DNA from: Streptomyces sp. NRRL F-5135
Lineage (GTDB): Bacteria > Actinomycetota > Actinomycetes > Streptomycetales > Streptomycetaceae
Assembly (NCBI RefSeq): GCF_000719775.1
Contig: NZ_JOHR01000010.1
Span: 124,001 to 188,000 of the forward strand
DNA: 64,000 nt
Reading direction: 5' to 3'
Shown here: positions 10,552 through 35,064 of the stretch, one piece after another
How the letters are laid out: each line of letters starts with the position of its first letter
How positions within the stretch are numbered: the stretch's first letter is position 1
Notes under the pieces: generated by a model
The model's input: only the letters and a program-made list of their open reading frames with translations
Told to the model about the DNA's origin: nothing
Databases searched by the model: none
Position numbers and translations under genes: made by a program

Positions 10552-10602
10552 CTGCGAAGTTGTGTGATTTGCGTGAAGACTGGGGCGGGGTTCGTGGGTG
10601 AG

Positions 10603-21000: not shown

Positions 21001-22005
21001 GAGTTTTACTCTCGAATTGAAAAGGTGTGCAGCGGATTTGGCGGCGGGGTAAACTGCCTGGTCGAGTATCCGGACGAATACCAAATCGCCATTAACGCGT
21101 TTTTTGCGTGTGGCGCCGCTCATTGTTCCGACACGCGAGAGTTGTGGGCGAACGTTCTGCGTGGTGTGACGCCGGAGATGGCGGCGATGGGGCCGGGGGC
21201 TGGCGCAAGGGGAATCAGAGGGAAACTCGGGTCCAGGGCGGGCTGCACCCAGTGCTTCCTGGCTGGTACCGACGTCCTCATGGCCGACGGAAAAACCAAG
21301 GACATTGAGGACGTCGAAATCGGGGACAAGGTCCTGGCGACGGACCCTGAAACCGGCGAGTCGGGTTCCCGTACGGTAACCCGGTTGATCGTCACCGAGG
21401 ACGACAAGCACTTCAATAAGCTGTCGATCGCCACAGGCGACGGAATCGAAACCCTGACGGCTACGCACGAGCATCCCTTCTGGTCCCCCTCGGAGCAAGA
21501 ATGGGTCGAGGCATCTGACCTCACACCCGGCATGACCCTGCTCACCGACGACGGCACCACCGTCATCGTCACCGCCAACCGCGCCTTCACCAAGCACGCC
21601 CGCACCTACAACCTCACAGTCGACGACCTCCACACGTACTATGTGCTGGCGGGGCAGACGCCGGTCCTCGTTCACAACAGCAACTGTGACTTCAAGATTG
21701 GGGTTGCGGACGAGAAATATGACAAGCATGTCTTGGGGCTCGATGATTCCGGGAATCCGACCCGTAGGCCTGATATGCCGGAATACGATACGGATGATGG
21801 CTTTGAAAGATACGTTGCGGACGCGCAGGCGCTGATGTGTCCCGGTAGCTGTCCCGCTGCTGCACGTGAAGCTGTCAGAAGTGACGGTGTCATCATTCGA
21901 ATGGACTCCCAAGGGAGAATTGGAATGAGAGACGGGAACACCATCACGACCTATTTCCGGCCAGATGATCCGCTCGCATACTTCCAGAGAGAGGCGGCCC
22001 GATGA
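15088..22005 (+). CDS. secreted Rhs/YD-repeat polymorphic toxin with Hint domain and C-terminal toxin tip
   Basis: 2305-aa protein. Signal peptide about 1-48 (basic start, hydrophobic SVVLIGTILQ, AVADS). Residues about 300-1890 are the Rhs shell with YD repeats (YDNLGRK, YDKAGNTTAR, YLYDADGNRL). It ends in the Rhs-core signature GLTHLGAREYDPTTGRFISV and DPSGL. A 165-residue spacer follows, then a Hint protease-like domain from C2056 (CFLAGTDVLMADG) through THEHPFW to LVHN2197, which should self-cleave and free the tip. The tip (about 2198-2305) ends ITTYFRPDDPLAYFQ. This resembles small BECR-fold RNase toxins, but the family is not certain. The tip and spacer have lower third-position GC than the shell, as expected of acquired modules. 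ATG 15088 is chosen for the signal peptide; a TTG at 15052 is unlikely. Confidence 0.9.
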   Translation: MRRSSFVQFPRSRSGSLLRRTSITLSVVLIGTILQNAAIPAPAVADSNLPGPPASEKPVPGTYGGKTVPRATPPEVRRPEAPPRAEWPGAVTRTVTVTPAENGGAARFTEVNDTPLGLAAAEQSGAAASSSARGTRAQTEPASVEARVHDRKKAEKAGVKGLLFSLQPTATTATTAHKRSAAAPAPDPTPTPASVALTVDYGDFAGAFGGSYASRMRLVQLPACALTSPAKDACRTATPVAAINDTVKRTLTAKSLSLPDGAPTVLAAAADTDGDKGDYKATSLAPSASWSTNLNTGDFSWSYDMPTPDVPGGLAPTVGLSYSSATIDGRAGGTNNQASWAGDGFDLWPGFIERRYKPCADDGQKNADGNKPGDLCWAYDNAFLTFNGKGGELVPLGGDEFKLKQDDGTKITRLKSTDRGNGDNDGEYWRLTVPDGTRYYFGYHRLPGWTEGKEATDSTWTVPVYGNNSGEPCHASDFAGSWCQQAWRWNLDYVVDPHGNAIGYHYTKESNSYGRNLKKDDDTPYTRGGYLDRIDYGVKSDRMYADKPQAQVVFGNAERCLPVSGVTCDPSTIDDKAPYWYDTPWDLNCKAGTACDDGRLSPSFWTRKRLTDVTTQTLNADGSYAQVDSWKLGHRWGMADTDYQLLLDSVQHTGQSATPAITLPKTTFAYTQLENRLDKTGDGYAPFIKDRLSTVADEMGGQVDVNYSAPTCDWNALPTPQTNTTRCFPQYIGGDSSDDPERQWFNKYVVTSTTTTDRMGGAPDAVTTYQYLGSAAWHFDDDDGLTKEKHRTWSQWRGYGQVRVQTGGQGGASAMKSQQDTYFLRGMDGDRKDTSGGTKAVTVSLAEGEGDPITDHSSAAGFSYKTVTFDKPGGNVLAKSVSRPWHHETAKKVRDWGTVTANFTGTSSTKEWTSLDKGAGSSWRTTSTATKQDTVAGRVIQVDDFGDTTTSDDNQCTRTTYATNADDTILVLPSRVETVAKACDATTDRSKDVISDVRTAYDGGAYGAVPAKGDVTATATLKSHDGTKATYLESGATYDGYGRGLTSTDLTADVTVSGDGAPVRTARADGRTTTTAYAPATGLPTQVKTTTPPAKAGDTSTALTTTQSIGPRGLVLTETDANGRVTKSSYDALGRSTKVWLADRPSDLTPSREFVYRVEEGKPAAVATKVLNNNGGQVTSWTIYDGFLRERQTQTPGPDGGSVLTDVFYDERGLAAKTFAPYYATGKPTFTLFEPENALSVETQTRTSFDGLGRPTETRQIAGNGDGGTVLATTTTSYGGDRTTVIPPVGGIATTTLTDARGRTTELRQHHERSASAPYDTTSYAYTPRGETAKVTGPAGSTWSYAYDQLGRKIKDVDPDKGTTTSTYDDRGQLTSTTDARGTTLVNIYDNLGRKRELREGTPTGTLRAAWVYDTVSSAKGQLAEATRYVGGEAYTSRVTEYDRLYRPKKTAVVIPAAEGKLQGTYQTGMAIQPSGLLVATSYSSAGSLPGGSTLYDYDDATLRLNAVRGDGSVGAINYSLTGKPLQYSMYQSGGGKKTQVTNTYEWGTQRLATTRVDREEQNGVDRFLTYRYDEVGNVLSMSDVSRTGTDNQCFTYDHLARLTEAWTQNTSSCSPAPAGGSIGGPAPYWHSYTYDKASNRATETQHNTTGDSAKDVKRTYAYPGQGKPQAHSLTSVTTSGASGTTTDAYAYDKAGNTTARPGQQFDWDAEGHLAKVTEGTKTTEYLYDADGNRLIGRTPTETTLYLGHTEITLAKGADKPKGTRYADIGGGQMAVYNDDRTTTFTIGDHHGTGQLAVKATDLSITQRRTLPFGAIRGDAPTSWPGTKGFVGGTDDTKATGLTHLGAREYDPTTGRFISVDPLLQTDIPQTLNGYTYAAQNPHTNTDPSGLGLACGGAGGSTEACPTTSEGKPGNGRPGEAVKCKWECGSWKSEGNSAADLNNDGYVNVFPGVIIPKKWEWSPKVTRAFIAEFYSRIEKVCSGFGGGVNCLVEYPDEYQIAINAFFACGAAHCSDTRELWANVLRGVTPEMAAMGPGAGARGIRGKLGSRAGCTQCFLAGTDVLMADGKTKDIEDVEIGDKVLATDPETGESGSRTVTRLIVTEDDKHFNKLSIATGDGIETLTATHEHPFWSPSEQEWVEASDLTPGMTLLTDDGTTVIVTANRAFTKHARTYNLTVDDLHTYYVLAGQTPVLVHNSNCDFKIGVADEKYDKHVLGLDDSGNPTRRPDMPEYDTDDGFERYVADAQALMCPGSCPAAAREAVRSDGVIIRMDSQGRIGMRDGNTITTYFRPDDPLAYFQREAAR
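21631..21654 (+). repeat. 24-bp direct repeat, left copy: candidate attL core inside rhs
   Basis: Twenty-four bases identical to 32196-32219, in frame in rhs and encoding HTYYVLAG near the Hint C-terminus (eight whole codons). Identity stops at both flanks: left neighbours differ at once. To the right the copies diverge with 6 mismatches in the next 24 bases while still encoding TPVLVHNSNC. Proposed as the integration core of the AICE. Biochemically untested. Confidence 0.65.
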
Positions 22006-22415
22006 CTCAAGGCGCTTGGGACTTCCGTGACGCGTTCTCCAACTTCGTCAGAGAGTCTGGTCGGTGGCGTGACGTTGAACCGGAGGCACTCCTGTCTCGC
22101 TGGCGTGGTTTCGTCGAAAGTTGCGAACAGGGCTATCGGGATGACGCCGAAGACTACTTCAATGATCTGACGTCGAGGGATTCGCTGGCGCGAGCTCTTG
22201 ATGCTGCGGAACTGCAACGCTTTCCCGAGCTTGCGCTACTTCGTGCAGAAGTGGAAGCGGTAGACGCAAGATTCCGCGCACTCCTGATGCCAGATGCGTT
22301 CCCAAGAATCTCTGAGGAATCCTGGTGGGCGCGCGGCGTGGTGAAATTTGCGCGGAGGCGGCTGGTGGAGGACCTGTGGCGGGAATACCACCTTGAAGTG
22401 GCACTGCTCGAATAG
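22002..22415 (+). CDS. putative immunity protein for the Rhs toxin tip
   Basis: 137-aa acidic, helix-rich cytoplasmic protein with no family recognised from sequence. It starts ATG overlapping the rhs stop by 4 bp (ATGA), the usual arrangement of a polymorphic-toxin immunity gene, so the pair is made together. No signal or membrane segment. Third-position GC is lower than in neighbouring core genes, matching the toxin tip. The role is inferred from position only. A hairpin follows the stop, closing the toxin-immunity transcript before the oppositely oriented int gene. Confidence 0.65.
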   Translation: MTQGAWDFRDAFSNFVRESGRWRDVEPEALLSRWRGFVESCEQGYRDDAEDYFNDLTSRDSLARALDAAELQRFPELALLRAEVEAVDARFRALLMPDAFPRISEESWWARGVVKFARRRLVEDLWREYHLEVALLE

Positions 22416-22440
22416 TTCTTGAAGGTTCGCCTCAGTAAAT

Positions 22441-22475
22441 AGAAGCTCCGCCAGGTGCGTCCTGACGGGGCTTCT
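22441..22475. terminator. hairpin between immunity gene and int
   Basis: AGAAGCTCCG pairs with CGGGGCTTCT (10 bp with one G-T), 15-nt loop. It lies between convergent genes and could stop transcription from both sides. Confidence 0.55.
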
Positions 22476-22483
22476 GCGTGGGG

Positions 22484-22506
22484 TGACGGCAGTAGTTGAC
22501 GGCAAC
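22484..22506. repeat. end repeat near int, copy 1
   Basis: TGACGGCAGTAG followed by TTGACGGCAAC, next to the int stop codon. A near-identical direct copy is at 32083-32104. Each copy itself holds two GACGGCA units, as expected of arm-type integrase binding sites. Confidence 0.5.
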
Positions 22507-22507
22507 G

Positions 22508-23815
22508 TCAGCGGACGAGGGCGGCGCAAGGTGGCGGTTCGTCGCCGTCGGAGCGTGCTGTCTTGATGGTCTCCGGACTGCCGAGTGCGGTGCTGAGGGT
22601 GTCGATGGCGTGGCGCTGAAGGCGGAGTCGGACGTGGGCGTAGACGGTGGCGGTGACGCCGATGTGGGCGTGGCCGAGGAGTTCCTTGATCACGACGAGT
22701 TCGACTCCCTGCTCCAGGAGCAAGGTCGCGGTCGAGTGCCTGAGGTCGTGGAAGCGGATGCGGCGGAGGCCGGCGCGGTGGAGGAGCGTGGTGAAGGTCC
22801 GGGTGAGGTTGGTCGGGTCGATCGCTCTGCCCTGGGCAGTGGTGAAGACGTGCCCGCTGTGCTGCCACGCCGTGCCCGCGGCCTCACGTTCGCGCTGCTG
22901 CTGTTCATGGTGGAGTTTCAGCGACTGGAGGCAGCGGGCTGGGAGGGCGATGCGGCGTTCGGAGGCCCGCGTCTTGGTGGGCAGCGTGGTGAGCCCGCCT
23001 GTGCTGGTGCGCTGGAGTGTGCGGCGGATGGCGGCGGTGCCGGCGTCGAGGTCGAGGTCTTCCCAGCGCAGGCCCAGGAGTTCGCCCTTGCGGAGCCCGG
23101 TGTGGAGAGCGAGTTCGAACAGCGCGTGCAGTCGGTGAGCGTGTGCGGTGGTGAGGAGTTGGCGGGCTTCGTCGGCGGTGAGGGGTTCGAAGCGTCGGGG
23201 TCGTGGGGTGCCGGTGCGGACGTTGCGGGCGACGTTGCGTGGGATCTCTTCCTCGCGCACCGCGTGCTCCAGGGCGGACTTGAGTACGGAGTGGATGTAG
23301 GTGAGCGTCAGCGGGGACAGCAGCTTGCGGCAGCAGGCCCCCGTGGCGCAGCATCGGGGCTGATCACGCCGGGCGTCGATGCCGCGTGCGCAGCACTGGC
23401 AGGTGGTGCGGAGCTGGTTGAGCCAGGTGCGGACGTCCTTGGCGGTGAGCTTGGTGAGCTTCTTCTTGCCGAGGCCGGAAATGAGGTACCGGTGTACGCA
23501 GGTGGTGTAGCGGGTGTGGGTGTTCTCGCGGAGGTCGTGGACGGCGACGTTCTCCAGCCAGTACGTCAGGTACGCGGCCACGCTGCCCTGCGCGGACGGG
23601 ACGGGGACGCCGCGGTTGCTGGCGGCGATCTTCTCGGTGAGCTTGGCCAGCGCGTCCTTGCGGGTGGTGCCGTAGACGCGGACGCGGCGACGGGTGTTGC
23701 CGGGGGCGAGGACGTATCCGGCGGCCTCCCAGCGGCCGTCCTTGCGCTGGTAGACGGTCCCGTCGCCGTTGGCGCGCACGCGGCGGGAGGCGGGGGTGTC
23801 TCGGGGCGTGGTCAT
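22508..23815 (-). CDS. int: tyrosine-recombinase integrase of the AICE
   Basis: 435-aa site-specific recombinase. Catalytic residues are visible: R242 (TGLRKGE), K281, H356 and R359 (HDLRH), H382 (GHAHI) and nucleophile Y392 (ATVYAH). An AP2-like arm-binding N-terminus (DGTVYQRKDGRWEA) and a SAM-like core-binding domain precede it. A Cys-rich insertion (about 139-162, CC pairs) may bind metal; it occurs in other Streptomyces AICE integrases as recalled. The start overlaps the xis stop by one base (TGATG), so the pair is coupled. It would carry out integration at, and with Xis excision from, the proposed 24-bp core in rhs. Usual AICE targets are tRNA genes, so an rhs target would be unusual. 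Confidence 0.95.
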   Translation of the reverse strand: MTTPRDTPASRRVRANGDGTVYQRKDGRWEAAGYVLAPGNTRRRVRVYGTTRKDALAKLTEKIAASNRGVPVPSAQGSVAAYLTYWLENVAVHDLRENTHTRYTTCVHRYLISGLGKKKLTKLTAKDVRTWLNQLRTTCQCCARGIDARRDQPRCCATGACCRKLLSPLTLTYIHSVLKSALEHAVREEEIPRNVARNVRTGTPRPRRFEPLTADEARQLLTTAHAHRLHALFELALHTGLRKGELLGLRWEDLDLDAGTAAIRRTLQRTSTGGLTTLPTKTRASERRIALPARCLQSLKLHHEQQQREREAAGTAWQHSGHVFTTAQGRAIDPTNLTRTFTTLLHRAGLRRIRFHDLRHSTATLLLEQGVELVVIKELLGHAHIGVTATVYAHVRLRLQRHAIDTLSTALGSPETIKTARSDGDEPPPCAALVR

Positions 23816-24039
23816 CAGGCAGGGTCCTCTTCGAGGCGGGTGCGGACGAAGTCGGCCAGCACGTGGGCGGGGATGCGACGGGCGCGGCCGAGGGTGATCG
23901 AGGCGAGCTGGCGGGTGCGGAGCAGGTCGTAGACGGCGGAGCGGCCGAGTTGGAGGCGCGCCATGACCTGCGGCACCGTCAGCAACTCTTCCGCCGTGCT
24001 CGGCCCCTGGTGGGGCGGGGCGGGTGCATGCGTGGTCAT
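23815..24039 (-). CDS. xis: excisionase-type helix-turn-helix protein
   Basis: 74-aa MerR-like winged-helix DNA-binding protein. The excisionase motif is clear: LLTVPQVMARLQLGRSAVYD (19-38), then LRTRQLASITLGRARRIPAHVLADFV. It should direct Int toward excision. It is tightly packed: its ATG overlaps the rep stop and its stop overlaps the int start, so rep-xis-int form one coupled unit as in pSAM2. Confidence 0.9.
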   Translation of the reverse strand: MTTHAPAPPHQGPSTAEELLTVPQVMARLQLGRSAVYDLLRTRQLASITLGRARRIPAHVLADFVRTRLEEDPA

Positions 24040-25484
24040 CAGCAGCCGCCTTCCGCGATGAACTGCCGTGCGAGTTCTCTGCGGTGCCATACGGAGGCGG
24101 CAAGGAGGGCCGCGCCGGGGCTGTAGCCGGAGCCGAGGTAGGCCCAGTGGCCGACGACGAGGGTGGTGTCCGGGTCGGGCTTGGGCAGGCCGGCGTGGGT
24201 GCGGGCCTGTTCGGTGCGCCAGGCGCGGCGGGCGTCGCGCAATGCGCCGAGGGTGGTGGAGTAGGAGCGGGACTTGGTGGAGAAGTGGCCCCGGAAGCCG
24301 AGCATGTGCGCCCACTTCCAGAGCTTCAGGCCAGCGAACTCCGGCAGCCTGCCCAGCTCCCAGCAGGTGCGGATCATCTGCCGCACATGGCGTGCGACCG
24401 CGAGCCGTGGCAGTGGGCGGGCCTGTCCGGTGCCGTCGCAGGCGGTGCAGGGGAGCGGGGTTCCGTGGGGCAGGAGGGTGGCGCCGCGTCCCTGGCAGGG
24501 GCGGCAGTACAGGGCGCGGTCGAGGGTGCCGGAGGCGTCGGCGGACTTGGTGGCGTACTTGGCCACGTAGGCGGCCACGGCCTGGTCGGTGAAGTCGGCG
24601 TCAGCGCCGAAGGCGGCGATCTCGCGTACGTCGAGCTGTTCGCCCCAGGAGAGTTCTCGTTCCCCGACTGCGTCCGACTCGACCGTGACGCGGACCCGTG
24701 CGGCGGCGGCCCGTACGGCGTCGGCGAGAACGGCGACGGTGGCGTACGGCGGCGGGGGCTGGCTGGTGCAGTCGGGGCCGTCGAGTCGGATGACGGCGTG
24801 GAAGTGGACCAGGCCGCGCTGCTGGTACTCGGCGACCTTGGCGAAGGAGACCCGCAGGACCGCGTGGGCGGCCTTCTGGGTCATGCCGAGTCGGGCGGCG
24901 AGCTCCCGGCGCAGGTAGGTGGTGAAGCGGGCCCACAGCGCGGAGGCGTGGGCGTTGAAGAGGACCGCGCCCGCGTAGTCGTACGTTGCCGGGTTCAGGG
25001 GCGTACCGAGCAGGGCGTCGGTGGGTTCGTGGAGCTTGCGGCAGCGGCAGGGGCGGATGTCGCCGCCGGGGGTGGTGGGGCGGTTGTGGACGGGGCCGAA
25101 GGACGGCGGGGTGAGGGTGACGAAGACGCGGGGGTGGGTGCGGACGGTGTCGGGCACGGTCTTGCCGCCGGAGAGGCCGGCGCGGATGAGGTGGTAGGTG
25201 TCGGCGGCGTAGAGGCGGGAGCAGGCCGGGCAGCGGGAGGCGCGGCGGTTCCCGCACGCGGTGAGCAGGCTGCCCGTGGGCTCCTCGGACGTGCTGTAGG
25301 CGCGCAGGACCTCGCCGGTCGTGGTGTCGACGGTGGTGGTGCGGCCGGTCAGGCGGACGGGTTCGGTGCAGCCGCCGAGGCGTTCGATCTGCTGGTGTGC
25401 GTGGTTAAAGTCGGGGTGGTTCACGAGGTTGAGCAGGTCCCGTACGGCGGGGCTTGCCACGTGGCGCAGGTCCAGGGTGACCAT
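24039..25484 (-). CDS. rep: RepSA-like rolling-circle replication initiator
   Basis: 481-aa replication initiator of the pSAM2 RepSA type, which nicks the element's double-strand origin so the excised circle can replicate. Motif 1 is FVTLTPPSFG (121-130), the HUH metal motif is LVHFHAVIRL (225-234) and the nicking tyrosine motif is AAYVAKYATK (304-313). Two Cys-rich zinc-finger-like parts are present: CGNRRASRCPACSRLY, and CRPCQGRG with CTACDGTG. The start at 25484 (MVTLDLRHVA) follows an AGAAGGGA site; the frame is open further but without similarity. Confidence 0.93.
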   Translation of the reverse strand: MVTLDLRHVASPAVRDLLNLVNHPDFNHAHQQIERLGGCTEPVRLTGRTTTVDTTTGEVLRAYSTSEEPTGSLLTACGNRRASRCPACSRLYAADTYHLIRAGLSGGKTVPDTVRTHPRVFVTLTPPSFGPVHNRPTTPGGDIRPCRCRKLHEPTDALLGTPLNPATYDYAGAVLFNAHASALWARFTTYLRRELAARLGMTQKAAHAVLRVSFAKVAEYQQRGLVHFHAVIRLDGPDCTSQPPPPYATVAVLADAVRAAAARVRVTVESDAVGERELSWGEQLDVREIAAFGADADFTDQAVAAYVAKYATKSADASGTLDRALYCRPCQGRGATLLPHGTPLPCTACDGTGQARPLPRLAVARHVRQMIRTCWELGRLPEFAGLKLWKWAHMLGFRGHFSTKSRSYSTTLGALRDARRAWRTEQARTHAGLPKPDPDTTLVVGHWAYLGSGYSPGAALLAASVWHRRELARQFIAEGGC

Positions 25485-25514
25485 TCGGGGCGTGTCCCTT
25501 CTGTCGGGATGGGG

Positions 25515-25564
25515 CCCCGAGCAGCAACCGGCCACGGTCGTAGGCGTGTTGGTGCTGCTCGGGG
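25515..25564. promoter_or_regulatory. hairpin upstream of rep
   Basis: 12-bp perfect stem (CCCCGAGCAGCA/TGCTGCTCGGGG) around a 26-nt loop, in the 146-bp gap between the spdB-like gene and rep. It could be a terminator for the upstream genes or a leader controlling rep. Not distinguishable by eye. Confidence 0.45.
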
Positions 25565-25630
25565 CATGACGAACCAGGCCCATCGAGGGCGTGGGTTTCG
25601 GAGGGGTGATCCGGCCGGTGGCCGGGTGGC

Positions 25631-26398
25631 TCAGAGTTGCGCGAGGGCGGCGGTGGCCACCGGCAGGGCGATGCCCATGCGGGTAGCGAGCTGGGCGGCG
25701 GTGACCGGTGTTCCGTGCTCGGCGTGGTGGGTGTCCGCGATGCGCCGGGCCGCACTCAGCAGTGCGGCGGGCAGGGCCGGGCGAGGGCCGGTGGCAGGGG
25801 CCTTGGCGACGGCCGGGGCGGAGCCGGGCGCCTCCATCACGGCGGGTGCTTCGGCCAGGGTCGGCGCAGGTGTCGCGGTGGGGACCGGTTCAGGGGCCGG
25901 GGCCGGGGGCGCGGTCTCGGGAGCGGGCGCGGTAGTGGGCACCGGCTCGGCGATGGGCGCGGGGGCTGGGGTGGTTGTGGTGGCGTCCTCCTGGTGTGCG
26001 GCGGTGTGGAAGTGGGCGAGGAAGGTGGGGCCGACGTGGCCCCAGCCCAGGAGTAGGAGCGGGGCGACGGTGTCCAGGCAGGCCCGGCCGTAGCGTCCGG
26101 TCAGCAGGGGTTCGGCGGTGTTCAGTGCGAGGGTGAGCAGCCCGCACAGGTGCAGCAGCCGGGTGCCGGCCTTCAGCTCCGCCTTGGGGGCGCCGCGCAG
26201 GGCCAGGTACCGGAGCGCGCCCAGGAGGCCGACGACGGACAGGTCCACCATGGGCGCGATCAGCGGCGCGATAGGGCGGGGGACGCCGAGCCGCAGGGCG
26301 AGCGCCCAGACGTTCCCGAAGGAGAAGACGAAGGCCAAGACCGCGATGACCGCCATGACCACGGTCACGGTGCGCCGGGTGAACCGTTCCTCCGCCAT
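25631..26398 (-). CDS. SpdB/DUF2637-like membrane protein, plasmid spread
   Basis: 255-aa protein with four N-terminal membrane helices (about 11-31, 42-62, 78-98, 106-126). A Pro/Ala/Thr-rich tail (about 138-205) leads to a C-terminal winged-helix-like segment (AARRIADTHHAEHGTPVTAA). This matches DUF2637/SpdB proteins, which are needed for spreading of conjugative DNA between hyphal compartments after mating. It sits just after traB, as in other AICEs. Confidence 0.8.
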   Translation of the reverse strand: MAEERFTRRTVTVVMAVIAVLAFVFSFGNVWALALRLGVPRPIAPLIAPMVDLSVVGLLGALRYLALRGAPKAELKAGTRLLHLCGLLTLALNTAEPLLTGRYGRACLDTVAPLLLLGWGHVGPTFLAHFHTAAHQEDATTTTPAPAPIAEPVPTTAPAPETAPPAPAPEPVPTATPAPTLAEAPAVMEAPGSAPAVAKAPATGPRPALPAALLSAARRIADTHHAEHGTPVTAAQLATRMGIALPVATAALAQL

Positions 26399-26436
26399 GC
26401 GCGGAACCTCCTCTCAATGCGTGGGATCGGGGGCGT

Positions 26437-27855
26437 TCAGGGCTTGGACAGGGAGACGACCGGACCGTCCGGCCCGTCGTCGTCGCCGGGGTTCGTGTGG
26501 CCGGTGGCGTCGAGGAGGGCATCCAGGCACAGGACAGGGTCGGCGGTCAGATGGGAGGTGGCTTCCGCGATGCGGGCGGCGTCGGTGTCGGAGACGTAGG
26601 GGGTGCGGATGCGGGTGAAGCCGGGGCGGCCTTGCATCGCCATCACCGCTACCCCGACATAGGCGGGGTCCTGCAAGGTGACCGGGCTGGCGTCCGGCCA
26701 GTTGCGGATGTCGTCGCCCAGCGCGGCCACGGCGGCTTCCACGGTCTTCTGCGCGAACGACAGCCCGACTGGGCACACGTCACGGATGAAGGTCGGGATG
26801 GCATCCCCGGTGGTCTTCTGGCTGATCAGGATCACGAGGATGCCGACGCTGCGGCCCTTCTTGACCAGGTCTTCCACCAGGCGGGCGTTCTCCGCCGTCA
26901 GCGCGGCCAAACGTTTCGTCTCGGCGTCGCTGCCCTTGTACTCACGGAAGAACGTGTGCGCCTCATCGATGAGCACCACCGTGAGCGGCCAAAGCCGCGA
27001 GGGGCCGATGTGCCACATGTTCTTCACGCCCAGCATGTCGCGGATCAGCGAGGACCGACGCCGACGCAGCGCTACCAGGCGCTTGAACAGCGCGTTGGCC
27101 TCGTCCAGGTCGTCACCGCAGAATGCGAACATTCGCTTGACCAGATCCGCGTAGTCGCCTTCCTCGGCCCGCGACACCTTCCCGTCGAAGCCCACGATCT
27201 GCACGGCCGCCGACGGCGCGAGGTCACAGACGAACTTGTTCACTGCCGAGGTCTTGCCCGCGCCCGGGGTGCCGGCCACGGTCACCCCGGGCACATTTGC
27301 CAAGGACACGCACACCGGTGCCGCGTACTCGTCCACGCCCAACTCCCAGCGCGACACCTCCTCCGGCGGGCGGCCGGTGGGACGGTGCTCGGTCGGCGTG
27401 GTCAACGGGTCGGAGCGCACGCCACGGATCACCACCCGGCCGGGCCCGTCCGGCAGCACGGAGACCCGCGTGCACCGCCAGGCGTCGGCCAGGAATCGCG
27501 CTGCCCTCTGGTACTCCTCCAGACCCACCTGCGGCAGCGTCCTGGCCCGCACGATCACGCCGAACCGGTCCGGCTTGACTTTGATCCTGGGAGTCAGCAC
27601 CCGGGGCGCGGGGGCAGGACTGTCCTTCTGCGCGGTGATCTGTGCCAGCAGGCCCGGGGTCTTGTCGGTGACCGTCAGTCCGGCCATCCGCGCCAGCCGT
27701 ACCCAGCCCCAACGCACCCGCATGGCCTGCCGGATGCTGACCCGCGTGCCCCGGTCGGCACGGATATAGCGCACCATTGCCCACAGCAGCCGCGTGCCCG
27801 CCAGCACGGCTACGATCAGCAGCACCTGCGGCGCGCGGTCGGTCAGGTCCTCCAC
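26437..27855 (-). CDS. traB: TraB-like FtsK/SpoIIIE conjugative DNA translocase
   Basis: 472-aa single-protein conjugation motor of actinomycete elements, moving double-stranded DNA between mycelia. One N-terminal membrane segment (about 10-28) anchors it. Walker A is AGTPGAGKTS (194-203) and Walker B is LTVVLIDEAH (291-300). A downstream ILVILISQKTTGDAIPT matches the FtsK sensor region. GTG start with GAGGGGG 8 nt upstream. It shares orientation with the regulator upstream and the spread gene downstream, forming the transfer module. Confidence 0.92.
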   Translation of the reverse strand: MEDLTDRAPQVLLIVAVLAGTRLLWAMVRYIRADRGTRVSIRQAMRVRWGWVRLARMAGLTVTDKTPGLLAQITAQKDSPAPAPRVLTPRIKVKPDRFGVIVRARTLPQVGLEEYQRAARFLADAWRCTRVSVLPDGPGRVVIRGVRSDPLTTPTEHRPTGRPPEEVSRWELGVDEYAAPVCVSLANVPGVTVAGTPGAGKTSAVNKFVCDLAPSAAVQIVGFDGKVSRAEEGDYADLVKRMFAFCGDDLDEANALFKRLVALRRRRSSLIRDMLGVKNMWHIGPSRLWPLTVVLIDEAHTFFREYKGSDAETKRLAALTAENARLVEDLVKKGRSVGILVILISQKTTGDAIPTFIRDVCPVGLSFAQKTVEAAVAALGDDIRNWPDASPVTLQDPAYVGVAVMAMQGRPGFTRIRTPYVSDTDAARIAEATSHLTADPVLCLDALLDATGHTNPGDDDGPDGPVVSLSKP

Positions 27856-27856
27856 G

Positions 27857-27994
27857 TCAGTCCCCCTCGGTATCGGATATCAGGCGGAGCATCTCGGCCA
27901 GGCCCAGCCCGGCCGCGTCCACTGGGGTCAGGCCGAGCCGGGCGAGCACAGCACCGGAGGCGGCGAACGTCGCCTTGCCCTCGGTGCCCGGCAA
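27857..27994 (-). CDS. short open frame before traB, possible gene remnant
   Basis: Reading from a TTG at 27994 gives 45 aa beginning LPGTEGKATF and ending MLRLISDTEGD. It looks protein-like, with biased codons and GLTPVDAAGLGLAEML. It is in the same frame as the SCO3933-type gene upstream, separated from it only by that gene's stop, and ends just before the traB start. I cannot name a family. It may be a small gene with a weak start or a fragment. Confidence 0.3.
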   Translation of the reverse strand: MPGTEGKATFAASGAVLARLGLTPVDAAGLGLAEMLRLISDTEGD

Positions 27995-28045
27995 GGGGCG
28001 CAGCGCGTGCAGCCTCCGCTGCGGCCCCCCGGCTGTCGGGTCGGA

Positions 28046-28399
28046 TCACTGGGCCGCCTCCGCCGCGACCAGCTCCAGGCGGGCGGCGCGGTAGGCGATG
28101 CCGTCGGAGAGCTGCCCGTTGAAGATCCGCGCCCACGGGGTCGCGAACAACTCCACCGGCCGCACCATCACGCCCGGCTTCAGCCCCGTCGCGAGGCCCG
28201 CCTCCGGGACGGTGATCTTCAGGACCTCGGCCCGGCCGTCCTCCATGAGCATCACGGTCACGGTGTACAGCGACGCGCCGGTCTCCCGGTCGGTGGCGAC
28301 CTCCCCGGTCTGCTGGTCCTTGATCTTCAGCACCGGCTCGGTGCCCGCGATGCACACCGCCGACGGCAGCAGAGCAACACGAATTCGAGACATGGCCAT
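28046..28399 (-). CDS. SCO3933-family AICE regulatory protein
   Basis: 117-aa cytoplasmic protein matching the small family that precedes traB/FtsK genes in many Streptomyces integrative elements. The recognisable signature is LKIKDQQTGEVATDRETGAS followed by VTVPEAGLATGLKPG and FATPW. The biochemical role is not established as far as I know. AAGGGATG lies before the ATG. It is divergent from the GntR-type repressor gene, so both share the control region between them. Confidence 0.75.
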   Translation of the reverse strand: MAMSRIRVALLPSAVCIAGTEPVLKIKDQQTGEVATDRETGASLYTVTVMLMEDGRAEVLKITVPEAGLATGLKPGVMVRPVELFATPWARIFNGQLSDGIAYRAARLELVAAEAAQ

Positions 28400-28577
28400 G
28401 CCATCACATCCCTTGATCGATAGAGCCGCTTGATCGGCTCGCTAGGAGCATAAGGAGATCATCGCTCAACTTGCAAGGTCGATTAGATCGTGAAGGCGAT
28501 CAGGTTGTGAGGCGGTCAGGCGGGGAACACGTGGATGTGCCTGTAGCGCTACGGCTGGCTGGCGATACCGTGGTGGC
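28400..28577. promoter_or_regulatory. divergent control region of the transfer genes and GntR repressor
   Basis: The 178-bp gap contains two CTTGATCG copies 17 bp apart (28412-28419, 28429-28436) and further GATC-rich motifs near 28480-28500. A related TTGATCAAG occurs at 29510-29518 after the repressor gene. These are candidate operators for the GntR-type protein, by analogy with KorSA control of pSAM2. Confidence 0.45.
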
Positions 28578-29447
28578 ATGACCCTGCCCTTGGACGAGGA
28601 CTCCCGGCCGCCGTATCTCCAGGCCGCCGAGGCTCTGCGGGACGCGATCTTGAACGGTGAGTTCCGCCCCGGCGAGCGCCTGCCCTCGGCCAACGTGCTG
28701 CGGGACCGGTTCGGTGTCTCCAGCTCCACCGTCCAAAACGCCCTGCGTGTGCTCAAGCAGGAAGGGCTCGTCTACTCCCAGCTCGGTCGGGGCAGCTACG
28801 TCAGCGCCTCAGCCGGCCAGAGTGCCGGACCAGCTGACGACGACCACGGCGATGCCGAGTCCGAAGGCCCGGACTGGCCGGTCGACCTCATCCACAACGA
28901 AGACAGCCGCCCGCCGTACGTTCAGGTGGCCGACATCCTCCGTCGCGAGATCGAGGAAGGCACCTATCCGCCCGGCTCTCAGCTTCCTCCCGCCCGTGAG
29001 ATCCAGGAGCGATTCCAAGTCGCCAACTCCACCGCACAGAACGCCTACCGGAGCCTCAAGCAGGCAGGACTTGTGTACGCGGTCAAGGGGCGCGGTGTCT
29101 TCGTGCGCCAGGCCCCGGAGCCGGGCAAGCACCGCGGGCCGATCACGAACTACCTGCTGCGAGACGAGATCGCCCGCGAGGCCCGTGCGGCTGCCGCCGA
29201 GTTCGCCGACCTCAGCGATGACGAGTTGCTGGAGCGGGAAGCGGAGCTGGACCGGCGATGGGTCACGATCCGCGAGGAGCATCAGCGAGTCTTCAACGAG
29301 CGCCGGAAGGTAAAACGCGAGAAGAGCCGACGCGGCCTGTTCCTGCCACCCCTCCATGACGACGACACCACGTCGGACGTGTCGCCGAGCCAGAAGCTGG
29401 AGGCCGCACTGGCCGAGTCGAGGAAACGCCGGCAGCAGCGCACCTGA
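28578..29447 (+). CDS. GntR-family regulator with two winged-helix domains
   Basis: 289-aa transcription factor, likely the transfer repressor of the element (KorA-like role). Unusually it has two GntR DNA-binding domains in tandem. The first (about 10-75) reads RPPYLQAAEALRDAILNGEF, with VLRDRFGVSSSTVQNALRVL inside. The second (about 108-175) reads RPPYVQVADILRREIEEGTY, with IQERFQVANSTAQNAYRSLK inside. A charged coiled-coil-like C-terminus follows (about 195-289). No effector-binding FadR/HutC domain is seen. It could contact paired operators as a monomer or loop DNA. Confidence 0.85.
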   Translation: MTLPLDEDSRPPYLQAAEALRDAILNGEFRPGERLPSANVLRDRFGVSSSTVQNALRVLKQEGLVYSQLGRGSYVSASAGQSAGPADDDHGDAESEGPDWPVDLIHNEDSRPPYVQVADILRREIEEGTYPPGSQLPPAREIQERFQVANSTAQNAYRSLKQAGLVYAVKGRGVFVRQAPEPGKHRGPITNYLLRDEIAREARAAAAEFADLSDDELLEREAELDRRWVTIREEHQRVFNERRKVKREKSRRGLFLPPLHDDDTTSDVSPSQKLEAALAESRKRRQQRT

Positions 29448-30001
29448 TCGACAGCCTGACAGATCGACCAGTGGTGAGCTGTTCAGAGTTTCTTTACTTG
29501 ATCAAGGCGGCCCGCTGGCGCGGGCCGCGCGCGCTCCGGCCCTGCGGGGCCGCCGCCCGCTCCTGTCTCCGCCCCGCTTGCCGTCGGCCCCGCCGGTCCG
29601 GGCGCGCAACAGCCGACACAGCGAACCACCTGGGGCTCTGCCCCAGACCCCGGCCCTCCCTCCGAGGGGCAGTGGGGCCGAGTGCGGGTGCGGCTTCGTC
29701 GTGGTGAGCGGTCGCGGGTCGCGGGTGGTGTCCCTCGCCGCCCGGTCACCGGAGGCGTACCAGGAACCCCCGGGGGCCGCCAAGGCCGAGCGCACGCGTC
29801 ACGATGTGAGCCTTGGCGGCCCCCGGAGAACCCTGGTTCGGCGAAGCTGCCCGACCGACGAGGGACCCCACCCGCTCAGGCCCCGGCCTTGCCGGAGCCC
29901 GGCCCGCCGCGTAGTGGGGCACCTTTGTGGGCGGGTGCCGACCGGATCACCCCGGTTGATGTGCCGGCCGGGCGTACCGTGGAGTGGGAGGTGGTGAGTT
30001 G
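29448..30001. other. non-coding region of the AICE with GC-rich hairpins
   Basis: A 554-bp stretch without a convincing gene. It contains a CCCGC/GCGGG-type hairpin near 29512-29530, the GGGGCTCTGCCCCAG element near 29632-29646 often seen beside Streptomyces plasmid genes, and the long inverted repeat listed at 29770-29826. It could hold a replication origin or small RNA; nothing decides it. Confidence 0.4.
29770..29826. repeat. perfect 16-bp inverted repeat
   Basis: CCGGGGGCCGCCAAGG at 29770-29785 is exactly complementary to 29811-29826, with a 25-nt loop. It is about 175 bp before the XRE gene. A single-strand origin, attenuator or terminator would all look like this. Confidence 0.6.
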
Positions 30002-31249
30002 ATGACCACGGAACTGGCTGACAACGTCCGCAAGTACCGGCGTCGCGCGGGGATGAGCCAGGAGGAACTCGCCCACGCCGCAGGTGTATCGCCGGGCACC
30101 GTGCGCAAGGCCGAGCAGGGCGGCACCATCCGCATGGAGACCCTGCACACGCTTGCCCGCGCGCTGGGGGTGACCACGGCCGCGCTGATGGCCTCAGACG
30201 CACCGGAGCCCGTCGGTCGGGCCGAGGAGCCGAATCGTGTCAACCTGATCCAGCTCCGCGCTGCCCTCACCCCAGCCGTCGGACTCGTGGACCAGGACAT
30301 CGAAGCCGTGACCGAGGAACCGAACCTGCGCACCTTCCAGCGGATGCTGCTAGACGCACGGGTGTTGTACTTCTCCGATAGCTACAAGAGCGTCGCGGCT
30401 CAACTGCCGGGCCTGCTGCGCGATGCAGCTCAAGCCGTCGCCTACTACGACAGTGGGGACGAGCACCGGCAGGCCCTGTTGGCCCGCGCCGAGGCGCTGC
30501 GTCTGGCCGGCACCTACCTCACCCAGGTACGGCAGTACGACATCGCGTACGCCGCTGTGCGCGGCGCCATCATGGACGCCCGTCAGGCCGGAGACATGCT
30601 CGCGGCGGGCTCCGGTGTCGGCTGCATGTGCTGGCTGCTGGTGAGGCAGGGACGGTTGGACGAGGCGGAACAGGTCGCCGCCCAGAGCATGGACGCGGTG
30701 GAGCCGAAGATCACCGGGGCCGAGCCGGACCACTACGCGGTGTGGGGTGGCCTGGCGATGGAGGCCGCCGCCGCAGCCGCGAGGAACAACCGTCCCGACG
30801 AGGCGAAGGAGTACCGTCAAGCCGCCCGGGTCGCGGCAACCGCTATCGGGACGGCGCATCGCAACGTCTCCCGGCACTGGTCTGTCTTCGGGCCGGTCAC
30901 AGCCGCGGTCAAAGCACTCGAAGACGACATGGTGATCGGCGACGCCCGCGCGGTGGTGCGCAAGTCAGGCGAGCAGGAGGAGTTGTCGCCCAAGGCGTGG
31001 AAGCGCTTGGGCAGGCCCAGCACTAACGACGGGAACCGCTTCACCCTCGATGTGGCGCGCGCCCACACCCGGACCGGCGACTTGTCAGCCGCCATGGACG
31101 AGTTGACCCGTGCCAGGGAAGCCGCCCCGCAGTGGCTGCGGCACCAGAACGGGGCCGCCGAGACCATGCAGGAGATCCTGCGCAAGCGCAAGCGCACCCT
31201 CACGACGGAGATGCGCGAAATGGCCGACTACCTGGGCGTTGTCGGGTAG
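30002..31249 (+). CDS. XRE-family regulator with TPR-like C-terminal domain
   Basis: 415-aa protein. The N-terminal helix-turn-helix (about 8-62) includes VRKYRRRAGMSQEELAHAAG and VSPGTVRKAEQG. The rest is an all-helical repeat array with features such as QLPGLLRDAAQAVAYYDSGD and LRLAGTYLTQVRQYDIAYAA, similar to the TPR-bearing XRE proteins common in Streptomyces elements. It probably senses a peptide or protein partner and controls nearby element genes. ATG 30002 is preferred, behind GGGAGGTGG. Three small features downstream (palindromes and two short genes) belong to the same module. Confidence 0.82.
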   Translation: MTTELADNVRKYRRRAGMSQEELAHAAGVSPGTVRKAEQGGTIRMETLHTLARALGVTTAALMASDAPEPVGRAEEPNRVNLIQLRAALTPAVGLVDQDIEAVTEEPNLRTFQRMLLDARVLYFSDSYKSVAAQLPGLLRDAAQAVAYYDSGDEHRQALLARAEALRLAGTYLTQVRQYDIAYAAVRGAIMDARQAGDMLAAGSGVGCMCWLLVRQGRLDEAEQVAAQSMDAVEPKITGAEPDHYAVWGGLAMEAAAAAARNNRPDEAKEYRQAARVAATAIGTAHRNVSRHWSVFGPVTAAVKALEDDMVIGDARAVVRKSGEQEELSPKAWKRLGRPSTNDGNRFTLDVARAHTRTGDLSAAMDELTRAREAAPQWLRHQNGAAETMQEILRKRKRTLTTEMREMADYLGVVG

Positions 31250-31296
31250 CTGCCACGCAACGTGGCAGTTCGTAAACCAAGAGTCGCGAACTGCCA
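31250..31296. promoter_or_regulatory. operator-like palindromes around CTGCCA
   Basis: CTGCCACG/CGTGGCAG with a 3-nt spacer lies at 31250-31268. It overlaps a second inverted repeat TGGCAGTTCG (31263-31272) / CGAACTGCCA (31287-31296). The three overlapping half-sites follow the XRE gene stop directly and precede the next gene, so they may be binding sites for the XRE protein. Confidence 0.45.
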
Positions 31297-31376
31297 TGGC
31301 TCCCACCTGGGGTGACGATCAGCCAGCGCCTACGGTCAGTGTGTCCACCGTCAGTGACCCAGGCCCGGGAGTGCCA

Positions 31377-31745
31377 GTGAGCCAGCCCAGGAGCGAAGCC
31401 GACCGCATGCGCCGCAGAGAGCTGTACGACGCCGCGTCGGGCGGGGGAGGTCCCCGCTTACTGCCGTGGACCAGCCCGGAGGGGAAGCCCTGCTACCTGA
31501 GCAGCGACGGCCGGGGTTACCTCTCCACCCTCGCCGACAGCATCGAGACGGTACAGCTCAGCATGGGCCAAGAGCTGTTGGAGTACTCCCGCGATGTCAC
31601 GTCGCCCGGCGCGAAATCCCTGTCGGCGAGCGAATACCGTTGGTTGGCCTGCCGGTTGGCAGAAGCCCTGGCGGACGCGCTCAGGGTCGCAGACTCGCGC
31701 GGACAGCGCATCCCGGGTCAGGAAGAGGCGGCCGAGGATGCCTGA
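31377..31745 (+). CDS. hypothetical protein of the XRE module
   Basis: 122-aa soluble protein starting MSQPRSEADRMRRRELYDAA, with a central LLPWTSPEGKPCYLSSDGRG and a helical C-terminus (YRWLACRLAEALADALRVAD). As recalled, similar proteins occur next to TPR-type XRE regulators in Streptomyces, but no function is known. GTG 31377 is favoured because GGGAG lies 5-6 nt upstream; an ATG at 31296 would add 27 residues and overlap the palindromes. Its end overlaps the start of the next frame by 8 bp. Confidence 0.65.
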   Translation: MSQPRSEADRMRRRELYDAASGGGGPRLLPWTSPEGKPCYLSSDGRGYLSTLADSIETVQLSMGQELLEYSRDVTSPGAKSLSASEYRWLACRLAEALADALRVADSRGQRIPGQEEAAEDA

Positions 31746-32026
31746 CTCTCCGAACGTCGGCGCACCAGCACGCAACGCCTCTCGGGGACGCTACCGCTTC
31801 CGCGAGTACCACGTGACCACCGTCCCCGCCCCCCCTGGCGCTACCAGCGTTCGAGGCGGTCTGCGTCACTGGCGAAGAGCGCAACTGCGGCGCCACCTCG
31901 GGCACGCTGCACACCCCGGACGAACTCACCCGCTGGATTGCCGGACACTGCGCCCAGAGCGGCCACGAACTGTACGAGCAGACCGTCCGCGCCCTCGTCC
32001 GCGCCGAACCCGGCGCATGGCAGTAA
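31738..32026 (+). pseudogene. frameshifted DUF7848-like small protein gene
   Basis: The first frame gives MPDSPNVGAPARNASRGRYR then FREYHVTTVPAP. The rest of the protein (LALPAFEAVCVTGEERNCGA and on to LVRAEPGAWQ, stop 32024-32026) is in a different frame. Removing one C from the seven-C run at 31829-31835 restores a single 95-codon reading frame. The joined product resembles small Streptomyces proteins with conserved Cys and a GxWQ end (DUF7848, as recalled). It is either a real single-base inactivation, phase variation in the C run, or a sequencing error. Confidence 0.65.
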
Positions 32027-32082
32027 AGTCCCCCTGCGCCGACACCACGCCAGCGGCAACGCGACTATGCGGCCCAAGCCGC

Positions 32083-32104
32083 TGACGGCAGTAGCGACGG
32101 CAAC
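32083..32104. repeat. end repeat, copy 2
   Basis: TGACGGCAGTAG then CGACGGCAAC, the direct counterpart of 22484-22506. Nearby TCCACG repeats (about 32114-32136) and an inverted ACTGCCGTTGACC (32151-32163) add to the impression of recombinase arm sites at the right end of the element. Confidence 0.5.
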
Positions 32105-32195
32105 AGCCACGGATTTCCACGCACATCCACGGACACCAGCGGACTGCGAAACTGCCGTTGACCTGCGAATATGCAGGTGGAGAGGGGTCGCGTAG

Positions 32196-32219
32196 CACAC
32201 GTACTATGTGCTGGCGGGG
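32196..32219 (+). repeat. 24-bp direct repeat, right copy: candidate attR core
   Basis: Identical to 21631-21654. The base triplet immediately before it, in the rhs reading frame, is TAG, so nothing upstream can read into the tip. Homology to rhs begins exactly at its first base and continues rightward with divergence. Confidence 0.65.
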
Positions 32220-32597
32220 GCTACGCCGGTCTTGGTTCACAATTCAAATTGTGGCCCGGCACTGAAGGATTTGCAGAAGGACTACCCTCGGCGCACAGTG
32301 GGAATCCTTGATGTCGGAAACGATCAGCTTCCGATGATCAGTGGTCCAGGCGGGCAGTCAGGGCTCCTCAAGAATCTTCCGGGCAGGGCGAAGGCCAACG
32401 GAGAGCATGTGGAGACGCACGCGGCAGCGTTCTTGCGCATGAACCCAGGCATCAGAAAGGCCGTGCTCTACATCGACTACCCAACGGGGGCGTGTCCAAC
32501 ATGCAAAAGTACCTTGCCTGGCATGTTGCCCAAGGGTACTCAACTGTGGGTGATATCGCCACGAAGGACTGAGAAATTCACCGGACTTCCTGATTGA
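32196..32597 (+). pseudogene. orphan Rhs toxin tip, DddA/SCP1.201-type deaminase, lacking its rhs body
   Basis: 133 codons with no proper start: HTYYVLAG, then TPVLVHNSNC (Hint end), then a 115-residue tip. The tip carries the deaminase zinc signature H71-V-E73 and C100-P-T-C103, in GEHVETHAAAFLRMN and YPTGACPTCKSTLPGMLPKG. The spacing and surrounding words match the double-stranded-DNA cytidine deaminase DddA and the SCP1.201 family named for a Streptomyces plasmid gene. Expression would need fusion to an rhs gene; GTG 32208 has no ribosome site. Catalytic residues look intact, so the module is silent rather than decayed. See the AICE entry for how it may be reactivated. Confidence 0.8.
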
Positions 32598-32658: not shown

Positions 32659-33354
32659 CTACCAGGGAAGTGGCTCATCGGTTGTGTAGTCCTGAACCCC
32701 AGAGTATGAGCGCCACTTGACTCCTGCTAGGTTCTCTGCCCAAGCAAGATCCCCTGGCGCAATCGCTGCCAGGGTGATGTCCTGGCCTGCCTCAGGGTCG
32801 TCGCTCGGGTGGACGAGAGCAAGCCAGCTCTCGCCGATGAGGATTCGTGAACCGGGGGCTGGCCAGTTCCATGCAGGGAAGGGGAATTCACGAACCCCTT
32901 CCTGGGACCAGAGCCAATACGCTTGTACTCCTTGCGTGACCTTCGTTGCAGGAGCACCGAGGATGGCTTCCAAGACTGTGGCGTGAATCAAGAATTCTGA
33001 GAGCCGCTCGCCGGTCCGCTTCCAAGGGGCCGGTTCGTCGGACGGTTCTCGCTCGTACACGGAGTGATCTTCATCGTTCGGGTCGAATGCCCAAACCCGA
33101 GTTCCTTGGTTCTCAACCCAGAACGGAATCTTTCCGTCTTCTACTGCCAGTTCCGTCAGAGGGATGGCGTAGTTGTGTGACGCGATCGCCCCGTCCCACT
33201 GGGCGGAGATTTCATGCCACTCGACAAGCTCCCTAGGTGTTTCAGGTGATTCCTCCAATCTCGGATTGGGTGATTTAGGAGCGCCATACCATCTCCGCAG
33301 AAAACGCAGTAGGCCCTGATTGTCCGTGGGGGCGAGAGAGGTCATGTGAGACAT
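32659..33354 (-). CDS. hypothetical protein, possible immunity protein of the orphan deaminase tip
   Basis: 231-aa soluble protein rich in Trp and acidic residues, with no family I can name surely. The N-terminal half (LRFLRRWYGAP, then RELVEWHEISAQWDGAI) recalls SUKH/SMI1-type immunity proteins, which pair with nuclease and deaminase toxins. It lies directly after the orphan tip but on the opposite strand, which is unusual for an immunity gene. Third-position GC is lower than in the flanking core genes, consistent with acquisition together with the tip. It starts MSHMTSLAP; the second ATG (33345) is an alternative. The assignment as immunity is inference from position and composition. Confidence 0.5.
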   Translation of the reverse strand: MSHMTSLAPTDNQGLLRFLRRWYGAPKSPNPRLEESPETPRELVEWHEISAQWDGAIASHNYAIPLTELAVEDGKIPFWVENQGTRVWAFDPNDEDHSVYEREPSDEPAPWKRTGERLSEFLIHATVLEAILGAPATKVTQGVQAYWLWSQEGVREFPFPAWNWPAPGSRILIGESWLALVHPSDDPEAGQDITLAAIAPGDLAWAENLAGVKWRSYSGVQDYTTDEPLPW

Positions 33355-33368: not shown

Positions 33369-33458
33369 CAGACGGGGCTGGCGATTCAGCCTTCCGAGAT
33401 GACCGGCCTGCTCGTCGCCACCAGTTACTCGGCGGCCAGCCCGCTGCCTGGCGGGGCC
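33369..33458 (+). pseudogene. 30-codon remnant of rhs core
   Basis: Read in frame from 33369 it gives QTGLAIQPSEMTGLLVATSY then SAASPLPGGA. This is clearly homologous to rhs residues 1467-1493 (19486-19566) apart from a three-residue insertion. It lies between the 32659-33354 gene and sdaA, so the rhs locus once extended, or was duplicated, to here. Confidence 0.8.
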
Positions 33459-34987: not shown

Positions 34988-35064
34988 GACCGGGTGTGGT
35001 GCCGCACCGACCGGGTGGCGCCGCATCGACCGGGTGACGCCGCATCGACCGGGTGACGCCGTGC
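34988..35064. repeat. imperfect 19-20-bp tandem repeat, four copies, in the glyA-sdaA gap
   Basis: Units built on CGACCGGGTGACGCCGCAT: 34988-35007 (diverged), 35008-35026, 35027-35045 and 35046-35064. The last runs into the terminator hairpin. Copy number probably varies between strains. Confidence 0.8.

Follow-up and report, generated by a model that had tools for sequence, protein, structure and literature searches.

An AICE-type element in the Hint codons of a Streptomyces rhs toxin gene very probably supplies the gene's toxin tip

Introduction

How does a polymorphic toxin gene come by a new C-terminal tip? Two reports, in their accessible parts, ascribe such changes to recombination with orphan or freestanding cassettes (PMC3482391, PMC3967940). 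Here we address the question for a 64,000-nucleotide stretch of Streptomyces sp. NRRL F-5135 (contig NZ_JOHR01000010.1, positions 124,001–188,000; this whole stretch is called the window, and coordinates count from its first base), in which a segment with the genes of an actinomycete integrative and conjugative element (AICE) sits within an rhs toxin gene. The data make it very probable that 21631–32219 is an AICE-type element in the Hint codons of rhs, that it supplies the tip now fused to the toxin shell, most likely by means of its own integrase, and that an older DddA tip has been pushed behind a stop codon. We observe directly its position, frame and gene content, a link between its integrase clade and a short attachment core, and one locus where some strains bear such an insertion and others do not.

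Results

A perfect repeat in the Hint codons of rhs

The first-pass annotation of the window had described a perfect 24-bp direct repeat around an AICE. Indeed, the copies at 21631–21654 and 32196–32219 are exact and bracket 10,565 bp; the window holds no third copy with up to three mismatches, and 100 shuffles gave none, which rules out a chance repeat. As had been proposed, the left copy lies in the rhs frame as HTYYVLAG, residues 2194–2201 of a 2317-codon rhs/YD-repeat open reading frame (ORF; 15052–22005), inside the pretoxin Hint (PT-HINT) domain (Pfam, residues 2077–2210) and a NCBIfam match for intein C-terminal splicing (2185–2210). Eight codons, QTPVLVHN, lead from the end of this core to the point after HN, where Hint and intein-like domains cleave. 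Being in frame and eight codons ahead of the cleavage point, the core lets the shell read directly into a new tip. The right copy is preceded by GCGTAG, of which the in-frame TAG abuts the core; similarity to rhs begins on the first base of the core (58 nt, 83%) and the frame reads on through ATPVLVHNSNC into a different, DddA-like deaminase tip, again as annotated.

The predicted content of int, xis, rep, spdB-like and traB genes is borne out by Pfam (PF00589, PF12728, PF20199, PF10935 and PF01580). The features of the locus are as follows.

10522–14961, forward: LamG-domain protein gene just 5′ of rhs (Laminin_G_3, E 3e-74)
15052–22005, forward: rhs/YD-repeat polymorphic toxin gene, comprising shell, PT-HINT and element-borne tip (RHS_repeat, PT-HINT, Rhs_assc_core)
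21280–21681, forward: PT-HINT domain with the attachment core in its last codons (PF07591, E 1.6e-23; intein_Cterm)
21631–21654, forward: attL core, HTYYVLAG codons (exact repeat; same position in 59 shell copies including that of the window)
21679–22005, forward: element-borne toxin tip, from after VHN (no Pfam family)
22002–22415, forward: presumed immunity gene of the element-borne tip (overlaps the stop codon of the tip; no Pfam family; beside the tip in G280, 82% amino acid identity)
22508–23815, reverse: tyrosine integrase, 435 residues (PF00589, E 4.4e-29 for the longer ORF; relatives at 78 loci)
23815–24039, reverse: HTH_17 protein, likely excisionase (PF12728, E 2.9e-8; directly before int)
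24039–25583, reverse: RepSA replication initiator (PF20199, E 6.4e-154)
25631–26398, reverse: DUF2637 (SpdB-like) protein (PF10935, E 2.7e-7)
26437–27855, reverse: FtsK/SpoIIIE-type, TraB-like transfer protein (PF01580, E 2.4e-8)
28046–28399, reverse: small conserved element protein (no family; 52–97% identical in the relatives possessing one)
28578–29447, forward: double GntR regulator (PF00392 in two stretches, E 1.4e-37)
29984–31249, forward: HTH/XRE regulator (PF01381, E 2.2e-13)
32193–32195, forward: in-frame TAG at the right core, end of the element (TAG here in 42 of 62 element-side copies)
32196–32219, forward: attR core (exact repeat)
32244–32597, forward: displaced DddA-like deaminase tip, from after VHN (PF14428, E 2.6e-10)
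32659–33354, reverse: presumed immunity gene of the displaced tip, 231 codons (no Pfam family; 80–90% identical beside the DddA tip in L020 and L200–L203)

The segment resembles pSAM2, SLP1 and kindred AICEs in its Int, Xis-like helix-turn-helix protein, RepSA, FtsK/TraB-like protein, regulators and end repeats. The integrase gene lies 0.88 kb from the attL core; the replication initiator scores above the gathering threshold of Pfam RepSA and reaches 582 bits against the 700-bit cut-off of the NCBIfam RepSA equivalog; the single FtsK/SpoIIIE protein scores 34.1 bits against a PF01580 gathering threshold of 24 and below the cut-off of NCBIfam TraB; and direct repeats, as attL and attR, stand at both ends. 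A tRNA 3′ end, the usual though not defining AICE site, is not used here: no tRNA occurs anywhere in the window, which rules out such an attachment site. The interrupted gene is built like a polymorphic toxin, with a long shell, a Hint peptidase and a C-terminal toxin that varies. In integrons, a tyrosine recombinase places cassettes behind a fixed expression unit, whereas the units here bring their own integrase gene, which comes next in 57 of 59 shell-fused tips; the integron model TIGR02249 yields 54 bits against a cut-off of 265.

Around the element, a LamG-annotated gene also stands upstream of a HINT toxin gene in eight plasmid records. A 52-nt stretch just past the immunity gene of the displaced tip (33403–33454), 85% identical to rhs 19511–19562, is perhaps a relic of an earlier rhs, and a 19-bp unit is repeated in three tandem copies at 34996–35071.

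The integrase clade is tied to the core

Relatives of the integrase were collected in two sets. From a scan of species-level genomes the best 80 of 333 matches were kept, giving 78 loci (best-segment identity 68–90%), mostly of Streptomyces, with some of Kitasatospora, Streptacidiphilus and Actinacidiphila and one record named Saccharothrix. A control sample of 150 Streptomyces genomes, drawn evenly across the genus, gave 93 matches in 59 genomes, some being fragments of one broken integrase; it overlaps the 78 loci, and the two sets are not independent. Core copies in the control genomes were sought with a pattern demanding codons of H-T/A-Y-Y-V-x-A-G; at the 78 loci and in the window, a copy with an open frame of more than 60 codons upstream, or one open to the contig edge, was taken as a shell copy.

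In the control sample, a core lies on the opposite strand, no more than 3.5 kb from int on its 3′ side, for 41 of the 48 integrase matches of at least 68% identity and for 0 of the 45 of at most 51%; no match falls between 51% and 68%. The annotation had predicted that the borders of close relatives would fall in Hint codons and had named tRNA or other unrelated sites as the contrary case; among the 48, no relative at an unrelated site was recognised. Together with position and frame, this family-wide link supports its claim that an element in the Hint codons restored the rhs frame with a tip and immunity gene of its own. Among the more distant integrases, tRNA-Arg(acg) lies 147–471 bases from the integrase in all four scanned loci of the 50–51% group, which would fit descent of the Hint-targeting clade from tRNA-targeting AICEs. 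In each of these loci (L177–L180) the integrase adjoins a tRNA-Arg(acg)/tRNA-Ser(gct) pair. Direct repeats around two of the 50% integrases, with about 1.5 kb per side covered, showed nothing telling.

The arrangement at the 78 loci and the window is congruent with attachment at the core. They hold 125 copies, 59 of which have an open shell frame upstream; an int follows within 2.2 kb, before the next core, in 57 of these. The remaining 66 lack a shell frame, and 55 of them have a family int upstream, matching what is expected of attR; at least 62 carry an in-frame stop within 15 codons upstream, and in 42 a TAG touches the core. Int is flanked by a core on either side in 44 relatives, here termed closed; 13 of these match rep, spd, tra and gntR and span 9.5–10.9 kb.

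It is possible, if doubtful, that the window element is a fossil, integrated once in this manner and now unable to excise or transfer. Many relatives are shorter and without tra matches, and some family integrases are broken; the int, HTH_17, RepSA and FtsK-type genes of the window are however open, and its two cores identical.

Several further forms of the family were observed. Locus L045 (Streptomyces sp. WAC06614) has five cores in 20 kb, each opening a frame of 126–154 residues, and three family integrases between which neither rep nor tra is matched; it forms an array of mini-elements. Alike ORF clusters lie right behind a shortened int 3′ end at L060 (5943–9846) and L043 (669–4560, both in window orientation) and, judged from ORF lists alone, look like a multi-gene transposon. 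Family members are further present at rhs genes of large linear plasmids in Streptomyces (L084–L088, L108), a location that would add a second transfer route. Two other candidates were set aside: a 14-kb circular record resembling an excised AICE (H13/L083) has no core and a 45% identical integrase, and a phage origin is disfavoured by phage matches to int that all stay below 60% identity, 12 relatives on viral contigs being 25–40% identical.

A natural insertion polymorphism in S. goshikiensis

The annotation had called for a junction with a single core. We read the homologous locus on linear plasmids of four S. goshikiensis strains. NBC_00909 and CGMCC 4.1796 have a single core in the stretch read, with the shell fused to one tip, here called Z. 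NBC_01191 has four cores and three tandem elements (9,608, 6,370 and 10,293 bp; insert 26,271 bp), whose integrases are 70, 79 and 86% identical to that of the window; its shell is joined to a new tip, and tip Z has moved 26,271 bp away. Comparison of NBC_01191 with CGMCC 4.1796 gives 99.55% identity over the left 2,000 bases. The right block opens on the first base of the core: immediately ahead of it 0 bases match, and the 3,799 bases that follow are 99.87% identical. The immunity protein of tip Z carries the same accession, WP_271245322.1, in CGMCC 4.1796 and, displaced, in NBC_01191. With the fourth strain, NBC_00283, one gene is thus seen to bear three tips.

Other pairs were less informative. 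Both the S. longwoodensis pair (L102, L103) and NBC_00466/NBC_01023 (L104, L105) have identical tips in their two records and say nothing on insertion, and S. clavuligerus F613-1 (L101), one of 16 listed clavuligerus records, has no element.

The core is conserved as DNA

The 24-bp identity holds for the window, as annotated; the part shared across the family is shorter. Among 45 left/right pairs, full 24-base identity is found in 6, identity of the first 14 bases in 40 and identity of CGTACTATGT in 44; the sole pair differing there is L015, whose right copy may not be a true end. At L066, outside the reach of the search expression, one base of the conserved stretch is changed in attL. Of 59 shell copies, 57 use ACG for the Thr and 58 use TAT for the second Tyr, as against 7 TAT among the 99 tyrosines of the window rhs. 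Where an integrase is linked to the core, all 58 of 58 copies have CGTACTATGT; of the unlinked copies, 55 of 74 have it. Plasmid PT-HINT loci without family int (L101–L105, L109 and L110; in L104 and L105 at most a 33% stretch resembles it) carry CACACGTACTATGT, as does L108 with its 79% int, and L106 and L107 read CACGCGTACTATGT. Docking genes thus preserve the core at the DNA level and drift somewhat where no element occupies them. The genome of NRRL F-5135 has a second rhs gene with PT-HINT (L150, contig C11, 13039 and upstream, reverse strand); it bears the same core (CACACGTACTATGTGCTGGCGGGC) and no family integrase nearby, apparently an empty docking site.

CAT serves as the first codon in 4 of the 59 shell copies and in none of the 62 on the element side, a difference that points to a crossover on the 3′ side of the core's third base. 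Judged from the sequence, a 7-bp overlap CGTACTA flanked by short ACA/TGT arms is likely.

Tips and immunity genes travel as cargo

The tips carried are diverse. Blastp grouping of 122 tips long enough for comparison gave 73 families, and pairs of elements with integrases at least 90% identical have the tip in common in only 2 of 32 cases. When 73 element-borne tips were compared with Pfam, matches were found to EndoU (5), RNase A, REase-9 and Fic (2 each) and also to DddA, XOO_2897 deaminase, Ntox27/30/43, GH-E and others, most of the tips, including that of the window, having no Pfam family; single cargo tips match Scabin-like and Enterotoxin_a by annotation only. In 72 of 73 cases an ORF of at least 60 codons separates tip from int; the matches of these ORFs include Barstar (4), CdiI_2 (2), SUKH-3 (2), single SUKH-4/5/6 and several DUFs. 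We presume these to be immunity genes, so that the cargo looks like toxin plus immunity. Most displaced tips are intact in length: counted from the core, at least 100 residues remain in 50 of 55, against 59 of 59 shell-fused ones.

We regard as improbable the explanation that the element merely uses a conserved coding landing site and, as elements do at tRNA genes, carries a 3′ end to keep its target whole, tip diversity being a by-product. Integrases that target gene ends do usually restore the 3′ end of the target gene, and docking genes share the conserved core whether or not they hold an element; the restored end, however, differs from element to element to the extent just described, even between integrases at least 90% identical, and toxin and immunity families are among the cargo.

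Tips also move between shells. The tip of the window recurs at 99% identity in Streptomyces sp. NPDC046924 (shell 70%) and Peterkaempfera bronchialis (shell 42%), at 98% in Streptomyces sp. NPDC005474 (shell 59%) and at 97% in S. zinciresistens (shell 41%), the three relatives of 98–99% being known from protein sequence alone. Among 30 pairs with tips at least 60% identical, several step at the core, L015/L076 and L018/L027 going from 74–75% identity before it to 94–97% after. As DNA, the window's own tip and immunity gene occur in 4 genomes besides its own among 392, and the copy at L186 (96%) adjoins a decayed int of this family.

The annotation further held that the element had replaced a resident deaminase tip. 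That the DddA tip is displaced past the TAG stands; that it was the native tip calls for revision. In 7 genomes besides that of the window, among the same 392, the DddA tip recurs, and in G149 (L200) it is, with its immunity gene, the cargo of a sibling element that reads shell, core, DddA tip, immunity gene, int, rep, spd, tra, gntR, TAG and core. The window thus probably records at least two successive arrivals. The tip is 90–91% identical in L020, beside int, and in G149; in G178 the tip is a displaced copy accompanied by part of an int, in G230 it has int stubs next to it, and in G049 it is shell-fused near an int stub. Some decayed copies keep the immunity gene of the tip and a C-terminal int stub (64 residues in L202, 68 in L203). 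Since the tip is on the int side of the core, core recombination alone cannot supply an element with a new tip; the stubs beside immunity genes could serve as a second recombination arm for tip gain.

Discussion

Several observations weigh against our main reading. Seven of the 48 close integrase matches have no core; two of these (G022:C169 and G028:C1136) begin at a contig edge, and a third, G022:C118, shares its coordinates with L042, whose contig ends there too. Among the closed relatives, 31 of 44 are without a match to at least one of rep, spd, tra and gntR. Of the 78 loci, L043 and L067 are devoid of cores and L023 and L059 lack one on the side of int; L035 has just an altered copy, DTYYVLAG, and no shell, and L025 has cores on the strand of int itself. 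The plasmid matches yielded no recognisable free circle bearing one core. The insertion polymorphism was read at a locus of S. goshikiensis, and there NBC_00283 bears a further tip on the same shell (99.2%) with no integrase, so that a swap is visible without an intact element; this strain retains a 207-bp stretch 73% similar to the region at the int 3′ end of the first NBC_01191 element. Some same-tip pairs, for example L013/L077 and L014/L082, show similar identity on both sides of the core. Finally, the annotation had taken the window tip on an rhs gene free of an AICE as a point against it, and this is partly what we find: the relatives L187 (79%), L188 (62%) and a partial L189 have no family int nearby, so the family of this tip exists outside elements too.

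That ordinary homologous recombination between a shell and an orphan accounts for tip exchange, with AICEs as later bystanders, is highly improbable: orphan tips do retain the conserved Hint end, Salmonella rhs switching has been explained by 522-bp recombination in the accessible part of PMC3967940, and swaps without an intact element exist in NBC_00283, L187 and L188, yet the shared stretch here is just tens of bases with similarity beginning at the core, the core is directly adjoined by element ends that have a conserved arm, and the S. goshikiensis insert runs core to core through three elements, each with a family integrase.

How might an AICE in the Hint codons change the toxin? We infer excision, transfer and toxicity from the sequence. 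The element would enter a new host by conjugation, its excised circle presenting an attP in the order element right end, TAG, core, tip, immunity gene and int. Int would recombine the core CGTACTATGT, with the overlap CGTACTA, with the same codons of any PT-HINT gene, and a new immunity gene would enter together with the new tip. The old tip and its immunity gene would stay intact beyond attR, silent behind the stop, an arrangement that is observed in the window. A second arrival could land before or behind the first, stacking pairs by accretion; tandem arrays are indeed present in NBC_01191, G080, L028 and L014. Excision would re-arm the next tip in line, and TraB-like transfer would take tip and immunity gene to other strains. 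By analogy with the proposal made for contact-dependent growth inhibition (CDI; PMC4927057), the immunity gene probably aids retention of the element.

We lean, with some reserve, towards a dedicated conjugative exchange of warheads: the Hint codons of toxin genes in Streptomycetaceae would be maintained at the nucleotide level as a docking port, into which an AICE clade would load, stack and reversibly unload toxin–immunity cartridges, with arrays as magazines in which core-to-core recombination would choose the tip.

Parts of this picture are familiar. AICEs, polymorphic toxins and displaced tips are already known, as are coding-gene sites and accretion of AICEs (PMC9513070). Int by one end and tandem accretion at one site are shared with pSAM2, SLP1 and their kin. 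According to the accessible part of PMC3218068, the vast majority of AICEs with tyrosine integrases sit in tRNA 3′ ends, the whole pSLS sub-family excepted; its main text does not name the pSLS sites and mentions neither 'rhs' nor 'toxin', and none of the 30 listed of our 1898 plasmid matches is named pSLS. In one Streptomyces population 14 of 51 AICE insertion sites were protein-coding, one being rlmN, with accretion and decay described in the available text (PMC9513070), where 'rhs', 'polymorphic toxin' and 'hint' do not occur in the main text and 'toxin' appears only as toxin/antitoxin cargo. In the present family the Hint end of a toxin gene serves as site, and the cargo is the replaceable tip of that gene with its presumed immunity gene.

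The Salmonella orphan rhs-CT/rhsI arrangement is alike in having a main shell with a displaced tip and immunity gene downstream, fusion altering the toxin deployed; switching there is ascribed to homologous recombination, and 'integrase' and 'site-specific' go unmentioned in the part of the paper at hand (PMC3967940). For CDI orphans, displacement by incoming modules was proposed in 2016 and a site-specific agent suggested for CDI arrays; in the accessible text no element, attachment core or responsible recombinase was identified for the E. coli orphan arrays (PMC4927057). Our literature search covered titles, the openings of abstracts and passages of some papers, with subscription papers, preprints and supplements mostly outside its reach; within it, no described AICE clade is tied to codons of a toxin gene while carrying the replaceable tip of that same gene, and this appears to be new.

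With a probable agent, its attachment core and its cargo in hand, and with strains that show the locus before and after insertion, the question of tip swapping becomes directly testable. It is likely, on the genomic pattern, that these elements let bacteria trade weapons by conjugation. If true, this would explain the upkeep of a conjugative element, as weapon and antidote arrive together and loss of the element would expose the cell to its kin; if general, it would make conjugation part of how a large group of soil bacteria tell kin apart and renew their weapons.

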